Source of the DNA: Pseudofabraea citricarpa | Lineage: Eukaryota > Ascomycota > Leotiomycetes > Helotiales > Dermateaceae | Assembly (NCBI GenBank): GCA_029641185.1 | Contig: JAPWGK010000011.1 | Span: 1,240,001-1,304,000, forward strand | Length of the DNA stretch: 64,000 nt | Direction of reading: 5' to 3' | In this document: piece by piece, positions 40,821 to 47,786 of the stretch | Layout of the letters: each line of letters opens with the position of its first letter | How positions within the stretch are numbered: position 1 is the stretch's first letter | Program-made: the position numbers and the translations under genes | Notes under the pieces: model-generated | Database searches by the model: none | Seen by the model: the letters and a program-made list of their open reading frames with translations, nothing else | Told to the model about the DNA's origin: nothing

Positions 40821-40933
40821 GCTCCGTTGGCGCAATGGTAGCGCGCAAGACTTCTATTAAATGCATTTATTACCCAATTAAATGCATTGATTACGTAATC
40901 TTGAGGCTGCGAGTTCGAGTCTCGCACGGAGTG
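40821..40933 (+). tRNA. tRNA-Arg(UCU) with a 41-nt intron
   Basis: The acceptor stem GCTCCGT pairs with ACGGAGT, with one G-T pair at the end. The D arm (GCGC/GCGC) contains the A box, and the anticodon stem is CAAGA/TCTTG. The anticodon TCT is at 40853-40855. The T arm is GCGAG/CTCGC with loop TTCGAGT, and the discriminator G is at 40933. The intron 40857-40897 sits at the canonical place, one base after the anticodon. It carries an 11-bp direct repeat around ATGCAT at 40857-40867 and 40878-40888. A T-run at 40940-40943 follows as a polymerase III stop. It is the left anchor of the element described below. Confidence 0.92.
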
Positions 40934-41061
40934 CTTTCCTTTTAATCTTTTTGGAAAAATCTAGTTAGTAAGAGTTTTCTTTTGTCGAGAAAAACGGAGT
41001 GCTTCTCATTTTATTCTTTTGGGAAAATCTAGTAAGGGTTTTTTTCGTTTGCCGAGAATTC
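40926..41061. repeat. Imperfect tandem duplication of the tRNA tail
   Basis: A 68-bp unit starting ACGGAGTGCTT at 40926 is followed by a diverged second copy from 40994. The copies share the 9-mer, T-rich tracts and the words GAAAATCTAGT and CGAGA. The duplicated tail may record an earlier integration event. Confidence 0.7.
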
Positions 41062-41257
41062 GCTTAATTGTTTGCATCTGTAGCCAACCCCAACCTCGCC
41101 AACGCAATTTAATATCTTGATGTGTTGCAATTTCTCTAGAGCCAAGCTAACTAAGAAATGTTTAGTGGTAATATTTACACTGTTAAATAAACCTTCCAAA
41201 CTGGATCATCATATACTTATGCTCCTTATCTTATAACACTCTGCAACATTTTGCGAC

Positions 41258-42276
41258 TTATTCCTCATCGTCCTCGTTATCCTCTTCGTCTCGGTCTTTA
41301 CGTTTCTTGGCAGCTCGGTTTTTATATTCCTGCAATCTCCGCTTCTTCTCCATTCTCAGGCCAGCCACAATCCCCTCGCTCGTCTCTCGCAATGTTGTTA
41401 GATCCTATAGATTTTAGCCTCGGCCTTTGGAGTTATATTGTAATTATCCTTCTTTCATACCTTGACAGGTTTATCTGTATGTAGTTTGCTAATCATCTGA
41501 TCGTCGAATTCCTTCCTCTTAATAGCATTCTCTTCCAGTTCAAGTAGATCTACATTAAGTTCTTTCTCTTTCTTTTTGAACCAGTCTCGCAAAGCTTTCA
41601 GGTCCTCTTTCTGAAAGTCGGCGGGATACTTCTTGTACTTATTATCTGGCTTCTTGGTTGTTTGAACGAAGAGGTACTCCATCAGAGCTTTCTGTAGCAT
41701 GATACTGTCGGTCCTATAATCCTTCTCGTCTGTCTCGTTCCCTGTCGTAGCTTTGGCACTGCTGGTTTCAATTCCAAATGTGTCAAAAATCGAGGCTGTA
41801 TGTTGTGCATAGTGTAAAACAACTACTCGTTTATGATATATATTCTGTAGTTTGCCCTTTAGTATCTCGAATCCTCTGGATGGTGACGAATGGAGAGGAC
41901 TGGTTGTCAAGTTGAATATATGTTTGAAAAGCTCGGTTATCTCCTTGATATCAGTTCTTTGGTCGTTTCCAGAGTCGGTAGCTTTGTTGGGCACAGTGTC
42001 TTCAGTGGGCACAGTGTCTTCAGACTCGGTGGGTTGGAAAAGTTGCTGAATCGCCTTCCTTGCCTCCAAAGTACAGCCCGTCGGGAACATTACATGCTGT
42101 TTGGCTATACCAGATGATGATAAAGCAGGGGAAACAGAAGACTTAGACTCGTCGTCTTTCCTCAGTATCTCGATAAGCTCCTTCTTGTTACATCTTGATC
42201 CTTTGAGCTTTCTGTCTCTGATAATATTTTGAAGGTCTTTAAGCTTCAAATTTGAGTACTCGTCGTCTTTCGACAT
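41258..42276 (-). CDS. SAP-domain protein of the candidate element, 320 aa
   Basis: The exons are 42276-41461 and 41404-41258, with an intron of 56 nt and phase 0. Residues about 8-42 match a SAP motif, a helix-turn-helix that binds AT-rich DNA (LKLKDLQNIIRDRKLKGSRC, then NKKELIEIL). The middle region includes an HIFNLTTSPLHSS segment and a helical block. The C-terminus is very basic then acidic (KNRAAKKRKDRDEEDNEDDEE), with a likely nuclear signal. It is divergent from the recombinase gene, 268 bp between the starts, which suggests shared control. A role in DNA binding for transposition or in element maintenance is an inference. I do not know a family with this full layout. Confidence 0.8.
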
Positions 42277-42544
42277 TGTGATTGCTCGGTCGGCGTAGTA
42301 GTCTTAAGAGTCTTGTTGTTTGTTGTGTTGATCTCTCAATCCTGCATTGGAGTCGCTCTCTCGTTCCTTCCTACCTATTTCGGCTAAACGCTTCTCATAC
42401 AACACTCTCCTCCTCCTCCCTCAATTTTCTACTTACCTCGGACCCTTTACACATGCTCGTTCGTTAGTCTTCTTGGTCTCTGTCGATTCAATTCACACAG
42501 TTGATATATAGAACGGGCCTCAAAGTTATTCGACCGAATTTACG

Positions 42545-45156
42545 ATGGATATATCCAAGGCCCCGAAGGTTAAGCCCATAGCTGAAGGAAAGGCTCGAGC
42601 CTTCCAAAAGGTCTTAAAAGATGCGGAGAGAATGCAGAAAATTCAAGAAGACCAAAATAACTCACTGTTTTGGGACCAAGGTGCTCTGAGGACCAAAAAT
42701 CGACGTGAGACAACGCGGGCTGAGTTTGAGTTCTTTGTTGAAGCAAGCTACGAAGTTTCCGAAATAGCCCAAGTTTGGAACATTGAGACAATTATAGAGC
42801 GGACGAAGGCCTTCATCTCGGTTTCTTTACATGTCCTTATTGATAAAATGAAGGGTATGTTCACTCAGTCAAACCGAGCGACCGAGATGCTAAATTAACC
42901 AAACCATATAGAGAAACCAAAGGTCGGAGTACTCTGGCAGCGTAAAGATGCAATATACTGGTGGAGCTTGCGATTCATCCCAAACTTCCTGTCGATGTAC
43001 GGAATGTGGCACACCTCCGTCGCCTCCCATATATATTATCTCGCGGTGCACAGTACTTTACGAACGACGTCGCTTCCCAAAAACAATCTGACCGACATCG
43101 AACTAGATGTCTTCTTCGCATTCATATTTACAACTCAAGAATACTCCGAAAACTCCTCCCAACACTACTTGGCTTGGTTATTAGTCTGGTTGACATCAGT
43201 GCGGCCTGGATCGATTACCGTATGTCCTGGCTACGAAGCAGATTCTTCGAGAGGAAGAACCGAGGATGAGACGTTACGTTGGAGTGATATTGAATTCTTT
43301 ATCTCAACCGACGGATCAGGCATTGGAGTTCGCCTTATCTTCCGATACATCAAAGGTTATCGAAACCCTCATAAGAAGTTCCGTCATGATCCCACACGGA
43401 CTTTCACATTCCTACCCTGCAAGACACCAAGATTGCATATGGATATTACTCTTATTTTCACTGCAATTGCTTTCTCACGGGGCCTCTTCCCACCGAGCTT
43501 CGTTAACATCGAAGCTCTTTACAAATGCAAGACCTTTTTTATCCCGAAGGTTCCAGATGTCGATAGACTGCCGGTGTTCCTTCGGTCAAATAAAGATATT
43601 CTTGTCAAGACCGAGGCTATGAAGGAACACGCACTGAATGATAAGCTACACGCTGTCTGCGATAAAGTTGGCTTGTTTGCGAGATATACTATGTATTCTT
43701 TGCGTCGTACGGCTATTATCGAGACAAGGAGAACAGACGGAACGGAAGAAGCGCGGGAATTGGCGACCCATGCTCCTAACTCAATGTCTATCCACTCATA
43801 TGACAATGTAGGTCTAGCAGACAAGGATGTGACAGCATCACGTCTTGGAGAAACCCAAGTATCAAGAAGCGAGATTCGAAAGATCTTCAATCTTGTTATA
43901 ACCGCCAGAGCCAACACAACGACTGGGACCGAGACCGAGACTAGCCAATATGCGCTTTTGAAGGAGGAGATGAATATCTGGGTTGAGGCTAAACTGTGGA
44001 AAGACGAGACTTGGATTAAGTCGGAAGACTTATACAACAAATTGTAAGTAAACCAAGAGATGGAGCTACCATATATATATGTCTAACTACTATCAGCCTG
44101 AGAGAGGTTTACGACAATTTCAATCTCCCTACAATTCCATCTAGACTAAATTGTAGTAAATCAATTCGTAACGCAGCAGAAATCAACGAAGATACGAAAG
44201 CGACCGCCCTAGCTAAACTTGCAACGATACAAGATAATACCAAAAGTACGAAGAGATCATTGACTCGAAAATATACTATTCAATTCAAGGAGGTTAAGTT
44301 AGAAGAAGCTCGGGAAACACTTCAAGCATCCGAAGTCGCAGTACGTGTCGGCGGCCGTGGCTCTCGTACAGTACCGAAAGAAATCAAGAAGATCATAGCA
44401 CAGGGGGACAGAGCAAACGAACAAATTCATATTGCAGCCACGAAGCAAGCAATCAACCAAATAAACGAACTTAATACCAATGACCTCAATATCAATAACA
44501 ACAACCACATCAATGACAACAACCACATTAATGACAACAACCACATCAATGACAACATCAATCAAAAGAAACGAAAGAGAGATACACCTATGGAACCTAC
44601 CGAGAACCGAGGTGATGATTCGACCGAGCCTAGCGATGATGATGAGGATGAAGATGATCCTCGCAAAGAACCGAGTGCTTGGGAGGACTTACCCGATGAT
44701 ATAGTTATACAAGTCGAGAAAGAAGTTACCGACGACGGAAAGGAGATAACGCTCGCTGACCGTATCTCTTTTGTACAGAAGCTTGTTGACATGGGGAGTC
44801 GGTCTTCACAAGATATAGGATGGTCGACAGGATCTCTAAGATGCCATCTCTGCCAGCTCGACGATTCTGTGGACCAAACGAAGAGGAACCAGATATGGAA
44901 GCGTGTAGCGTTGGACCGACATCTAAACAGCAACTTTCACAGCCAGGCGAGTGTACTGAAACGTAATGTCGAAGCGTACTTGGTCCATGACACAAAGTGT
45001 CCCCTGTGCTCAAGGACCGAGATGATCGAGATGACCGACAATAGTGAGGAAAGCGTGGATGATACCGAGGAAGGCGAGAAGAAGAAGGGAAGAGAGTTCA
45101 AAAACGCTAATAGTCTGGTAAATCATTTGGTCGAGGTTCATGAATACAAGGTCTGA
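42545..45156 (+). CDS. Tyrosine-recombinase-like protein with C-terminal zinc fingers, 833 aa
   Basis: The exons are 42545-42854, 42912-44043 and 44097-45156; the total is 2502 nt. The central part carries the spacing of a tyrosine recombinase: R201 in TSVRPGS, LRWSDIEFF, K251 in FRYIKGYRN, R368/R369 in YSLRRTAIIE, H390 in ATHAPNS and a candidate nucleophile Y400 in IHSYDN. Fungal Crypton and DUF3435-type recombinases have the same order with the R-R motif. The C-terminal region has an Asn/His repeat (about 613-635), a nuclear signal KKRKR (638-642), an acidic stretch and two C2H2-like fingers (C730, C733, H756, H762; C782, C785, H824, H829). No frameshift or stop breaks the model, so it may be active. 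It is presumed to be the integrase of the element. Confidence 0.8.
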
Positions 45157-45378
45157 AAACAAACATTTGCTAGATTGCAATTAGCAAGCGCGTATTTACT
45201 ATTCATTCATACCAAGTATTATTCTAATGAACAAAACAAGAACCGAAATAGAAAAAAAAGCAAGAAAAAAGGGTCTATTCAGAGGAAACATTGTTTTTAT
45301 TTCGCAAGTCTATTCCTTACTCTCGGTACTTGGTTCTTTAGTACTCGGTAGTTCAAAGTTCGAACTACCCCTCACGAA

Positions 45379-46568
45379 CTACTTTCTTCCACTCTTCTTC
45401 TTCTTGGCTCTCTCCACCTTAGCTTGTTCCCTAAGCCGATTTCGTTCCCCAAGCATCAGGTCGAAATTCTGGAAGGCAATCTTTCCTTTCTTGACCATCT
45501 TGGTGAAAACCTTCCGTTCACATTCTTCCACGGTCAGTTTTTCCCAACCCTTGAGCAACTTACAGTCGGTATACTTGATATTGGTTCCTCTGTATGGCTT
45601 CGCTTTCGACACATCGACAGTTTGTCCTTGGACGTTGTATTTGCCGACGCGACGAAGGAACTTCAAATTTCGGTCAAAGGATCCATAGACAAGTCTTCGG
45701 CTATCCTTTGCGTCAGGATGATATTCAGCGAAAGCTATGCCATCCTCAATAGATGAGGAGCTGTGCTGATTGCGACCCTTGTTCATCTTCTCTTTTCCCT
45801 CGTCAGATGATGACCCTGCCTCCAACTTTGTCTCTTCGCTACTTGTACTTTCAATGGATATAACAGACGGAGCTTCCTTTTCTGAGGGTTGATTTTCGGA
45901 GAACTGAGCCTCGCTTGGCGCTGCTGAGTAGCCCTCGGATCCTTGGGAACTCGCATCTCCAGTGCTAGCATAACGTGCGTGGCGTGCGTGGCGTTTGTTG
46001 AAAGCTGGGTATGGGGTAGATGTTCTTTCGGTTTCCTTGGTCTTTTCTAAACTTGGTGTTACTTTATTGTCCAGAGTGGAAAGTCTTCTTGAAAGCTTGG
46101 ATGGCTCGGTTTTGCCTTACCTTCTTTTTGTGCGCCTTCTTTTGGAGGAAACTGAAAGTCTTCTCGAAAGCTTGGATGGCTCGGTTTTGCCTTACCTTCT
46201 TTTTGTGCGCCTTCTTTTGGAGGAAAGCCTTCTTGAAAGCTTGGATGGCTCGGTTTTTCCTTGCCTTCTTTTGGTAGTTTTGATGGAGCTTGCTTCGTTG
46301 GAGGGGGGTTGAGGGAGCGTAGCAATTGGTTCAATGTATCTCGGGTTGCTTTATCGAGCAAACCATCTCGTGCTTCAACCACCAGTGCACAAAACTCCTC
46401 ATGCTCCTTTTGATTGGGTCTTCCTCCATGCTTATCGGGATGGTGCATAATAAGAAGTTTCTTCGCAGCCTTGGTAATAAGATTTTGAACCACTGCGCTC
46501 AGTTGTTCGGTCGAGACTGGTTGGAGCCCTAAAATGCCCCAGTAGTTGTGGTTGACGACGGGTGCCAT
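45379..46568 (-). CDS. J-domain protein of the candidate element, 376 aa
   Basis: The exons are 46568-46121 and 46061-45379. The join is phase 1 and uses a GTAAGG donor inside the last copy of a repeated segment. The N-terminus is a J domain with the HPD motif at residues 43-45 (LLIMHHPDKHGGR), so it may recruit an Hsp70. Next come imperfect copies of KPSHPSFQE separated by PPKEGAQKEGKA. The C-terminal half has a disordered Ser-rich part and a compact basic region (LVYGSFDRNLKFLRRVGKYN through KAKPYRGTNIKYTDC), ending KVERAKKKKSGRK. J-domain proteins linked to an integrase are unusual; a chaperone role in assembling the integration complex is speculation. Confidence 0.75.
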
Positions 46569-46902
46569 GTTGATAACTGCTCATTGAGTTAGTCTCTCTT
46601 TATGTTCGGTCTTCGGTCTTCGGTCTTAGGGAATCAGAAAGGCAATCAAACTTACGAGATCGATTAGGGAGGGACTTGTTGGATTTAAGCTTCGATCTTA
46701 GGTGGCTTCCTTGGTTTGCTGGCTCGGTGCAGCTCAGTTTTGCATCTGTTTGTTAGCTTGGGTTAAGGATCTTCGATTCAGTACTTACTACTTCGGTATC
46801 TTGTAACCTTTGCATTCCTTCTGACAAGGTATGTTGGTTATACAAGATGGTTGCGTTGGTGTAGTGGTAAAGATGGAGAGTCGCGAAACAGAAGTACGCG
46901 GC

Positions 46903-46986
46903 GCGCAGATATTACTAGCGCTAACTGAGTGCGCAGGTATTACTAGCGCTAACTGAGTGCGCAGATATCACTAGCGCTAACTGAGT
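46903..46986. repeat. Three tandem 28-bp repeats with a TAGCGCTA palindrome
   Basis: The copies start at 46903, 46931 and 46959 and differ at one or two bases. Each contains the perfect palindrome TAGCGCTA. A decayed fourth copy follows to about 47014. Spaced palindromes at an element end could bind a recombinase or accessory protein. Confidence 0.85.
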
Positions 46987-47074
46987 GAATAGATATTGCT
47001 AGTTTTAGTTAGCGCGAATTGTGTTTATATGATGCAGACAGACCTAGCTGAGCCAAGTGCTGGCTGTGAAGCGA

Positions 47075-47391
47075 TGGCTCTTGTCGCAGCTTTCTGAGGA
47101 TTTCTTAAAATGCTATTGATGAAGCAGATATTGATGAAGCATTTACATGAGGATCAGATGATGAGGATGAGCAGAGATGCTGGCAGTGCAGTTATTGTAT
47201 TATTTACAGAAATACTAATAAGTAAAGTCTGCTCGATAGCTCTTGTTGCAGCTTTCTGAGGATTTCTTCTCAAAATACTGTTGATGAAGCAGATTTTGAT
47301 GAAGCAGAAGATAATGAGGATGAGCTGAGATGCTGGCAGTGCAGTTATCATATCATTTACAGATATACTAGTAGAGTAAAGTCTGCTCGCT
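47075..47391. repeat. Tandem duplication, about 161-bp period
   Basis: Two diverged copies start at 47075 and 47236. Each begins near GCTCTTGT, continues with GCAGCTTTCTGAGGATTTCT and ends near AAAGTCTGCTCG. No coding role is apparent. Confidence 0.8.
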
Positions 47392-47637
47392 TTTTATTAT
47401 AATGCTTGATCGCTACTACTATATCATCTATATGTTACCTCAGCTCTTTCTTTAGAGCACTATGATAGCATAGGCAATTAGATTGATGAAGTGCTCTCTT
47501 TATACGTCTTAAGAATGCAATAATCCTATTCCAAAGTCTTAAGTCTTAGGTTTATTGTACTTGTATTTACTGATTTTATAGCACTAAGGCTCACTTACTC
47601 CAGACAAGCGCCACAGAGTGGCGCTGGACTAAATAAG

Positions 47638-47757
47638 ATGCCGACCCGGAAGCGCTTGGCGAACTCGAATCCGGCTCGACTAACAAAGATGACTAACAAA
47701 GTCTTTATGCCGACACCGGAGGCGCTAGGCGAACTCGAACCTGGATCGGCTAACGAG
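47638..47757. repeat. Two 51-bp units abutting the tRNA fragment
   Basis: The units at 47638-47688 and 47707-47757 share ATGCCGAC, CCGGA, GCGCT and GGCGAACTCGAA in the same order. The second runs directly into the tRNA 3' fragment. Read on the minus strand the core contains TTCGAGTTCG, somewhat like a B box, but no cloverleaf forms. Confidence 0.75.
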
Positions 47758-47786
47758 GCTGTGGGTTCGAGTCCCACACGGAGTGC
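47755..47786 (+). tRNA. tRNA-Arg 3' fragment (pseudo-tRNA)
   Basis: The sequence has a T arm GTGGG/CCCAC with loop TTCGAGT, the 3' acceptor strand ACGGAGT and a discriminator G, followed by a T-run. The 5' half is missing: upstream lies repeat DNA. It differs from the intact gene's 3' end mainly by paired changes in the T stem. It is the putative right attachment site of the element. Confidence 0.75.

Follow-up and report, generated by a model that had tools for sequence, protein, structure and literature searches.

We analyzed a stretch of 64,000 nucleotides from the genome of the fungus Pseudofabraea citricarpa (the window: bases 1240001-1304000 of contig C3, in an assembly of 43,985,132 bases and 43 contigs), to which the positions below refer. 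An intact tRNA-Arg(UCU) gene begins at position 40821, and only the 3' half of a tRNA of the same type lies 6.85 kb downstream. Three uninterrupted genes stand between the two, encoding a tyrosine recombinase of the DUF3435 type, a SAP-like protein and a J-domain protein; in this genome all three are found at this locus only. Measured from core to core (see below) the segment spans 6852 bp, and it is AT-richer than its surroundings (GC 0.436 against 0.489 and 0.487 in the flanks). Integration of a mobile element into a tRNA-Arg gene, with rebuilding of the 3' end of that gene, is a reading of this locus that its sequence supports well.

The left tRNA gene (40821..40933, + strand) is a hybrid. 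It comprises exon 1 (40821-40856), an intron of 41 nt (40857-40897) and exon 2 (40898-40933), and Rfam matches its full length, 40821-40933, at 57.5 bits (gathering threshold 29, E 1e-10). The default scan of ARAGORN, made without introns, reports no tRNA in the window; when introns are allowed, the program places the intron at 34 instead of 37, three bases early, and so prints Thr(tgt). Once the intron is set at position 37, the anticodon reads TCT, as it does in the tRNA-Arg(tct) gene with a 20-nt intron that the intron mode of ARAGORN finds on another contig (C34:2299586-2299678). The left tRNA and the C34 gene have the same 36-nt 5' exon, base for base. The T stem is GCGAG/CTCGC in the left tRNA versus GTGGG/CCCAC in both the C34 gene and the orphan tail, and it still forms because the four differing bases amount to two complete compensatory pair exchanges. 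The T arm contains the B box TTCGAGT. A native 5' half joined to a different, well-formed version of the 3' half is the signature that would be expected if the element supplied the latter; the putative element-borne part is 40910..40933 (+), the first G of its T stem belonging to the core.

A 20-nt D-arm pattern, searched through the whole genome with up to three mismatches, occurs in eight places (five for the reversed-pattern control): two exact, namely the window tRNA and C34, one with a single mismatch in a tRNA on contig C25 read as Arg(CCU), and five with three mismatches. Apart from the window and C34 genes, therefore, no tRNA-Arg(UCU) gene was found in the genome. A family-wide tRNA scan gave 62 matches, a lower bound only, the window's own tRNA being missing from the list.

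The right end carries GAGGCTGTGGGTTCGAGTCCCACACGGAGTGC (47755..47786, +, 32 bp), an orphan 3' half that is identical to the C34 tRNA at 32 of 32 positions (E 9.9e-8 in a whole-genome search). As it stands, this end is recognized as a tRNA by neither Rfam nor ARAGORN. A 23-nt tail pattern with at most three mismatches has four matches in 44 Mb and none when reversed; two are exact (the orphan tail and C34) and two have three mismatches (the left tRNA and a decayed piece on contig C5). An earlier reading of the same DNA, made from the sequence only, had described an intact tRNA-Arg(UCU) at one end and just the 3' part at the other, and Rfam, ARAGORN and the 32/32 match to C34 bear this out. The two junctions agree over the seven bases GAGGCTG, at 40903..40909 (attL, +) and 47755..47761 (attR, +), and diverge on either side. 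This core corresponds to tRNA positions 43-49, that is, the last base of the anticodon stem, the variable loop and the first base of the T stem. The sequence-only reading had placed integration at the 3' end of the tRNA; entry into tRNA-Arg with rebuilding is supported, but the core lies at 43-49 and not at the extreme 3' end. Joining the two flanks in silico yields a complete tRNA with the native T stem, which ARAGORN recognizes with the intron misplaced as in the left tRNA.

Could the two pieces be what is left of two tandem tRNA-Arg(UCU) genes, deletion or decay having removed the 5' half of the right one, with an unrelated solo recombinase and its neighbors lying between them by chance? 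tRNA genes are frequently duplicated, decayed tRNA-like pieces such as the one on C5 are known in this genome, and DUF3435 genes are described as mostly solo (PMC12134995). Yet the orphan is perfect over 32 bp, and no 5' half above chance is present within the element: a candidate for the displaced 5' half at 46850 was rejected, as it matches at 16 of 27 positions and at least 16 matches were reached in 36 of 100 Markov-1 resampled sequences. The other genomic tRNA matches the orphan rather than the intact gene, and the one good DUF3435 gene of the genome falls exactly between the pieces. We consider tandem duplication a distinctly improbable origin. A native 3' half displaced by 6.85 kb is what integration with replacement of the 3' end would predict, and decay of a second tRNA would not. 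Integration with rebuilding of the 3' end would explain together why the displaced tail is native, why the joined tail is a well-formed variant and why an uninterrupted recombinase gene lies between them.

The recombinase gene (42545..45156, +) has three exons (42545-42854, 42912-44043 and 44097-45156) separated by two introns and encodes 833 amino acids, with a Cys/His zinc-finger-like region at the C terminus. The sequence-only reading had called it tyrosine-recombinase-like, and this is confirmed by a match to PF11917 (E 8e-6) and a predicted fold that is Cre-like. Its catalytic residues are conserved. PF11917 is present in 9 of 25 homologues, and 16 of the 26 sequences in the family alignment match it at E<=0.01. 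The homologues include proteins of Botryotinia convoluta (BCON_0680g00020), Baudoinia panamericana (BAUCODRAFT_23062), Westerdykella ornata, Amniculicola lignicola, Oleoguttula, Recurvomyces mirabilis, Paraphaeosphaeria sporulosa and Byssothecium circinans. The protein is a member of the superfamily that includes the captains of Starships, the large mobile elements of Pezizomycotina. That reading had matched the gene set to no described fungal family, a statement that this membership qualifies. A profile search of PDB sequences returned 12 chains at E 0.03-1, all zinc fingers or unrelated proteins and no recombinase, and collections of viral and prokaryotic contigs held no confirmed relative (37 and 49 pattern stretches). 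The Pfam scan (E<=1) of the three recombinase reading frames found no GCR1_C domain.

We propose, with a probability of about 0.82, that the locus is a 6.85-kb integrative mobile element whose DUF3435 recombinase joined the attP site of a circle to the attB site of a tRNA-Arg(UCU) gene at the 7-bp core. The sequence itself shows the two tRNA pieces and the identity of the native one, the core, the single copy and the uninterrupted recombinase with its conserved catalytic residues; from this anatomy we infer the mechanism. A circular intermediate bearing a tRNA 3' end (attP) would recombine with the host gene (attB) within positions 43-49. The left end of the element would bring a T arm and acceptor strand, so that the cut gene would immediately be made whole on the side of its 5' half, and the original 3' half would be stranded as an orphan at the far end. 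The direction of this event, and this recombinase as its agent, would follow from the same layout. The promoter boxes of eukaryotic tRNA genes are internal to the tRNA. The element must therefore bring a B box too, and TTCGAGT stands in the T arm of the left tRNA; the rebuilt gene, presumably a working hybrid, would combine the A box of the host with the B box of the element. Most speculatively, the zinc-finger-like tail and the SAP-like protein might help to choose or hold DNA, the J-domain protein might recruit host Hsp70 so that the recombination complex is assembled or taken apart, and repeats with a period of about 70 bp at the ends might serve as accessory binding sites.

tRNA genes are fragile, recombining sites, and the right end contains a stretch like the tail of a host gene on contig C7. 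The layout might have arisen at the tRNA gene through repair of a DNA break or through ectopic recombination, with no involvement of the recombinase. A complete T arm and acceptor strand that are different and yet in register are not expected from repair, nor is a 7-bp overlap, which is given as the usual core size of tyrosine recombinases (PMC8371274). We regard such an origin as very improbable.

Several observations weigh against integration by this recombinase. The PF11917 score is 25.5 bits against a cut-off of 25.8; Foldseek gives no match at E<=0.001, the best being Cre at 1.4e-3; and the model segments that contain K251, R368/R369, H390 and Y400 have a predicted local distance difference test score (pLDDT) below 50. 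The case comes from one genome and one copy, and neither an empty site nor a circle nor a further copy was observed. The right part of about 1.2 kb is repeat-rich and non-coding. This part is AT-richer (GC 0.421), and its TpA/ApT ratio of 1.04 exceeds that of every other stretch compared, among them the recombinase gene at 0.76 and the flanks at 0.77 and 0.72; given this make-up, it may have decayed or may not belong to the element.

The two remaining genes lie on the - strand, each with one intron in its splice model. The SAP-like gene (41258..42276; exon 1 42276-41461, intron 41460-41405, exon 2 41404-41258) encodes 320 amino acids. The label goes back to the sequence-only reading and is plausible but weak: the protein has no Pfam match, and the SAP domain of Tho1 is its second match among PDB sequences (E 0.5) and its first fold match in Foldseek (E 0.84, probability 0.82). 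None of 2225 candidates was a homologue at E<=0.1. The J-domain gene (45379..46568; exon 1 46568-46121, intron 46120-46047, exon 2 46046-45379) encodes 371 amino acids, matches PF00226 at E 1.6e-5 (25.3 bits, below the cut-off of 27.8) and has the HPD motif. The earlier identification as a J-domain gene holds, since a relative from another genome, P0026, clears the PF00226 cut-off and shares its C-terminal domain. No confirmed relative was found in viral contigs (14 pattern stretches).

Did a larger, ordinary Starship instead land in a tRNA gene and shrink by deletion to the present remnant, the small size and odd genes being secondary? The recombinase belongs to the captain superfamily, at least one structural RNA gene, 5S ribosomal DNA, can serve as a Starship target (PMC12153272), and the right 1.2 kb appears rearranged. 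Against this, the two ends are consistent with a single att site that has a 7-bp core, and none of the three genes is interrupted; this does not suggest a torso. Nor is the J gene random debris, because a second genome encodes a related J protein that shares its C-terminal domain. Moreover, 5S-targeting Starships reportedly fragment the gene (PMC12153272), whereas the tRNA here is rebuilt. We judge a Starship remnant unlikely.

How does the proposed element compare with known systems? It resembles Starships in its PF11917 recombinase, in the short direct repeats at its junctions (GAGGCTG on both sides) and in that structural RNA genes are among their possible targets, 5S ribosomal DNA being one (PMC12153272). 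Starships have terminal inverted repeats in many cases, not all. Their recombinase is the leading, outermost 5' gene; here the recombinase gene starts at 42545, and the SAP-like gene (41258-42276) separates it from the left end. They are giant elements that carry cargo and also differ in size, 15-700 kb being reported (PMC12134995) against 6852 bp here, and in target, which here is a tRNA gene that is rebuilt and not fragmented. The closer functional likeness is to the phages, integrative and conjugative elements, archaeal viruses and plasmids of prokaryotes that recombine inside tRNA genes by means of a tyrosine recombinase. Bacterial and archaeal integrases are described as often acting on tRNA genes, where the overlap measures about 7 bp and the tRNA gene is made whole again; as proposed here, the element supplies the 3' end and an orphan tail is left on the far side, and tRNA-Arg(TCT) is listed among the more frequent archaeal targets (PMC8371274). 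Unlike these, the fungal element has spliceosomal introns, a DUF3435 recombinase with a zinc-finger-like tail, and J-domain and SAP-like genes, and it must also supply an internal B box. Cryptons of the CryptonF group are likewise DNA elements with a eukaryotic tyrosine recombinase, short direct repeats and presumed circles, but they are characterized by a GCR1_C domain, absent from the window recombinase, and by repeats of 4-6 bp (PMC3212892), and their recombinases are given as only very distant relatives (PMC12134995). As two Starship features are lacking (length and an outermost recombinase), two are present and GCR1_C is absent, we class the locus as a small DUF3435 element that would work like a prokaryotic tRNA-integrating element.

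The tRNA-targeting retrotransposons of yeast and Dictyostelium insert near a tRNA gene and not inside it. What they have in common with the proposed element is that they exploit tRNA genes, presumed to be safe places for insertion when a genome is compact (PMC5006619); they differ in that they reverse-transcribe and do not rebuild the gene. Recombinases of eukaryotic viruses are reported to have other targets, namely a CC dinucleotide site in brown algae (PMC13236599), and telomere-type repeats and 28S ribosomal DNA in crustaceans (PMC10871703).

Both ends of the element carry partial tandem repeats. The left one (40926..41036, +) has a 43-nt unit whose copies (40926-40968 and 40994-41036) lie 68 bp apart and are identical at 35 of 43 positions; it includes ACGGAGTGC twice, the second being a further copy of this tRNA terminus. 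In the right one (47646..47761, +) the unit is 46 nt, the copies (47646-47691 and 47716-47761) lie 70 bp apart with 37 of 46 positions identical, and the second copy stops at the core. Chance is an unlikely source, with binomial estimates of 5e-13 (left) and 2e-13 (right), before allowing for the search over positions. The repeats may be binding arms or scars of earlier integrations. At the predicted circle joint, the 8-bp inverted pair ACTCGAAC and GTTCGAGT flanks the core off-centre, and we conjecture that these are candidate binding sites of the recombinase. No inverted pair of at least 18 nt links the two ends; shorter pairs were not covered systematically.

The non-coding right part contains a 28-bp tandem repeat of 3.6 copies (46903..47002, +), the consensus of which includes the palindrome TAGCGCTA. 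At 47035-47373 there are two degenerate copies resembling the 3' end of a host gene on C7 (L046 4796-6550), with similarities of 85% over 74 nt and 77% over 47 nt; these may be captured host sequence. The C7 match was rejected as another element: it covers the tail of a host gene, which was judged by eye to encode a Y-family DNA polymerase.

Further copies ending at tRNA-Arg tails, for which the sequence-only reading had suggested a search, are absent from whole-genome searches of this assembly. The match of the tail pattern at C5:1120203 (three mismatches) was rejected as a second element: it is a decayed tRNA-like stretch, with no recombinase among the open reading frames in 9.9 kb. The piece itself (C5:1120203-1120225, -, L045) resembles tRNA-Arg(UCU), and the genomic sequence continues into CCA (AGTGCCA), as in a copy of a mature tRNA; it could be a retro-pseudogene or chance. 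A DUF3435-like match on contig C12 (25% identity, one stop) was also set aside, there being no tRNA in the 9.9 kb around it. It adjoins a 456-amino-acid reading frame with a C2H2 finger (L043 3729-5099, -), and the two together probably represent a recombinase gene of this superfamily that has decayed.

A separate tRNA oddity lies on contig C42 (about 1051677-1051832, +; L056 1496-1651), where a tRNA read as Ile(UAU) has an anticodon-loop intron and a further 60 nt inside the T loop bearing the spliceosomal-intron signals GTAAGT, CTAAT and TTTAG. Rfam finds no tRNA in the stretch as it stands, ARAGORN matches it only with the 60 nt removed (calling it Glu, the other intron misplaced), and a second copy was not found in the genome. 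The insert may be a spliceosomal intron in a nuclear tRNA gene.

What might this locus mean for fungal genomes? We found no paper treating DUF3435, tRNA and Starships jointly in the open-licence PubMed Central literature, a coverage that leaves out subscription papers and preprints. We tentatively suggest, at slightly less than even odds, that a family of small fungal elements with DUF3435 recombinases enters and rebuilds tRNA genes, and that many 'solo' DUF3435 genes of Pezizomycotina are such unrecognized mobile elements. If so, their boundaries would be hidden because the target gene stays whole. The tRNA tail is an easily searched boundary, and the question can therefore be tested in any fungal genome. 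Such an element may be a source of a recombinase whose natural target is conserved. If the reading is true, insertion into the coding portion of a tRNA gene can leave that gene unbroken, and the tRNA-rebuilding strategy of phages and archaeal viruses would be present in the eukaryotic nucleus.
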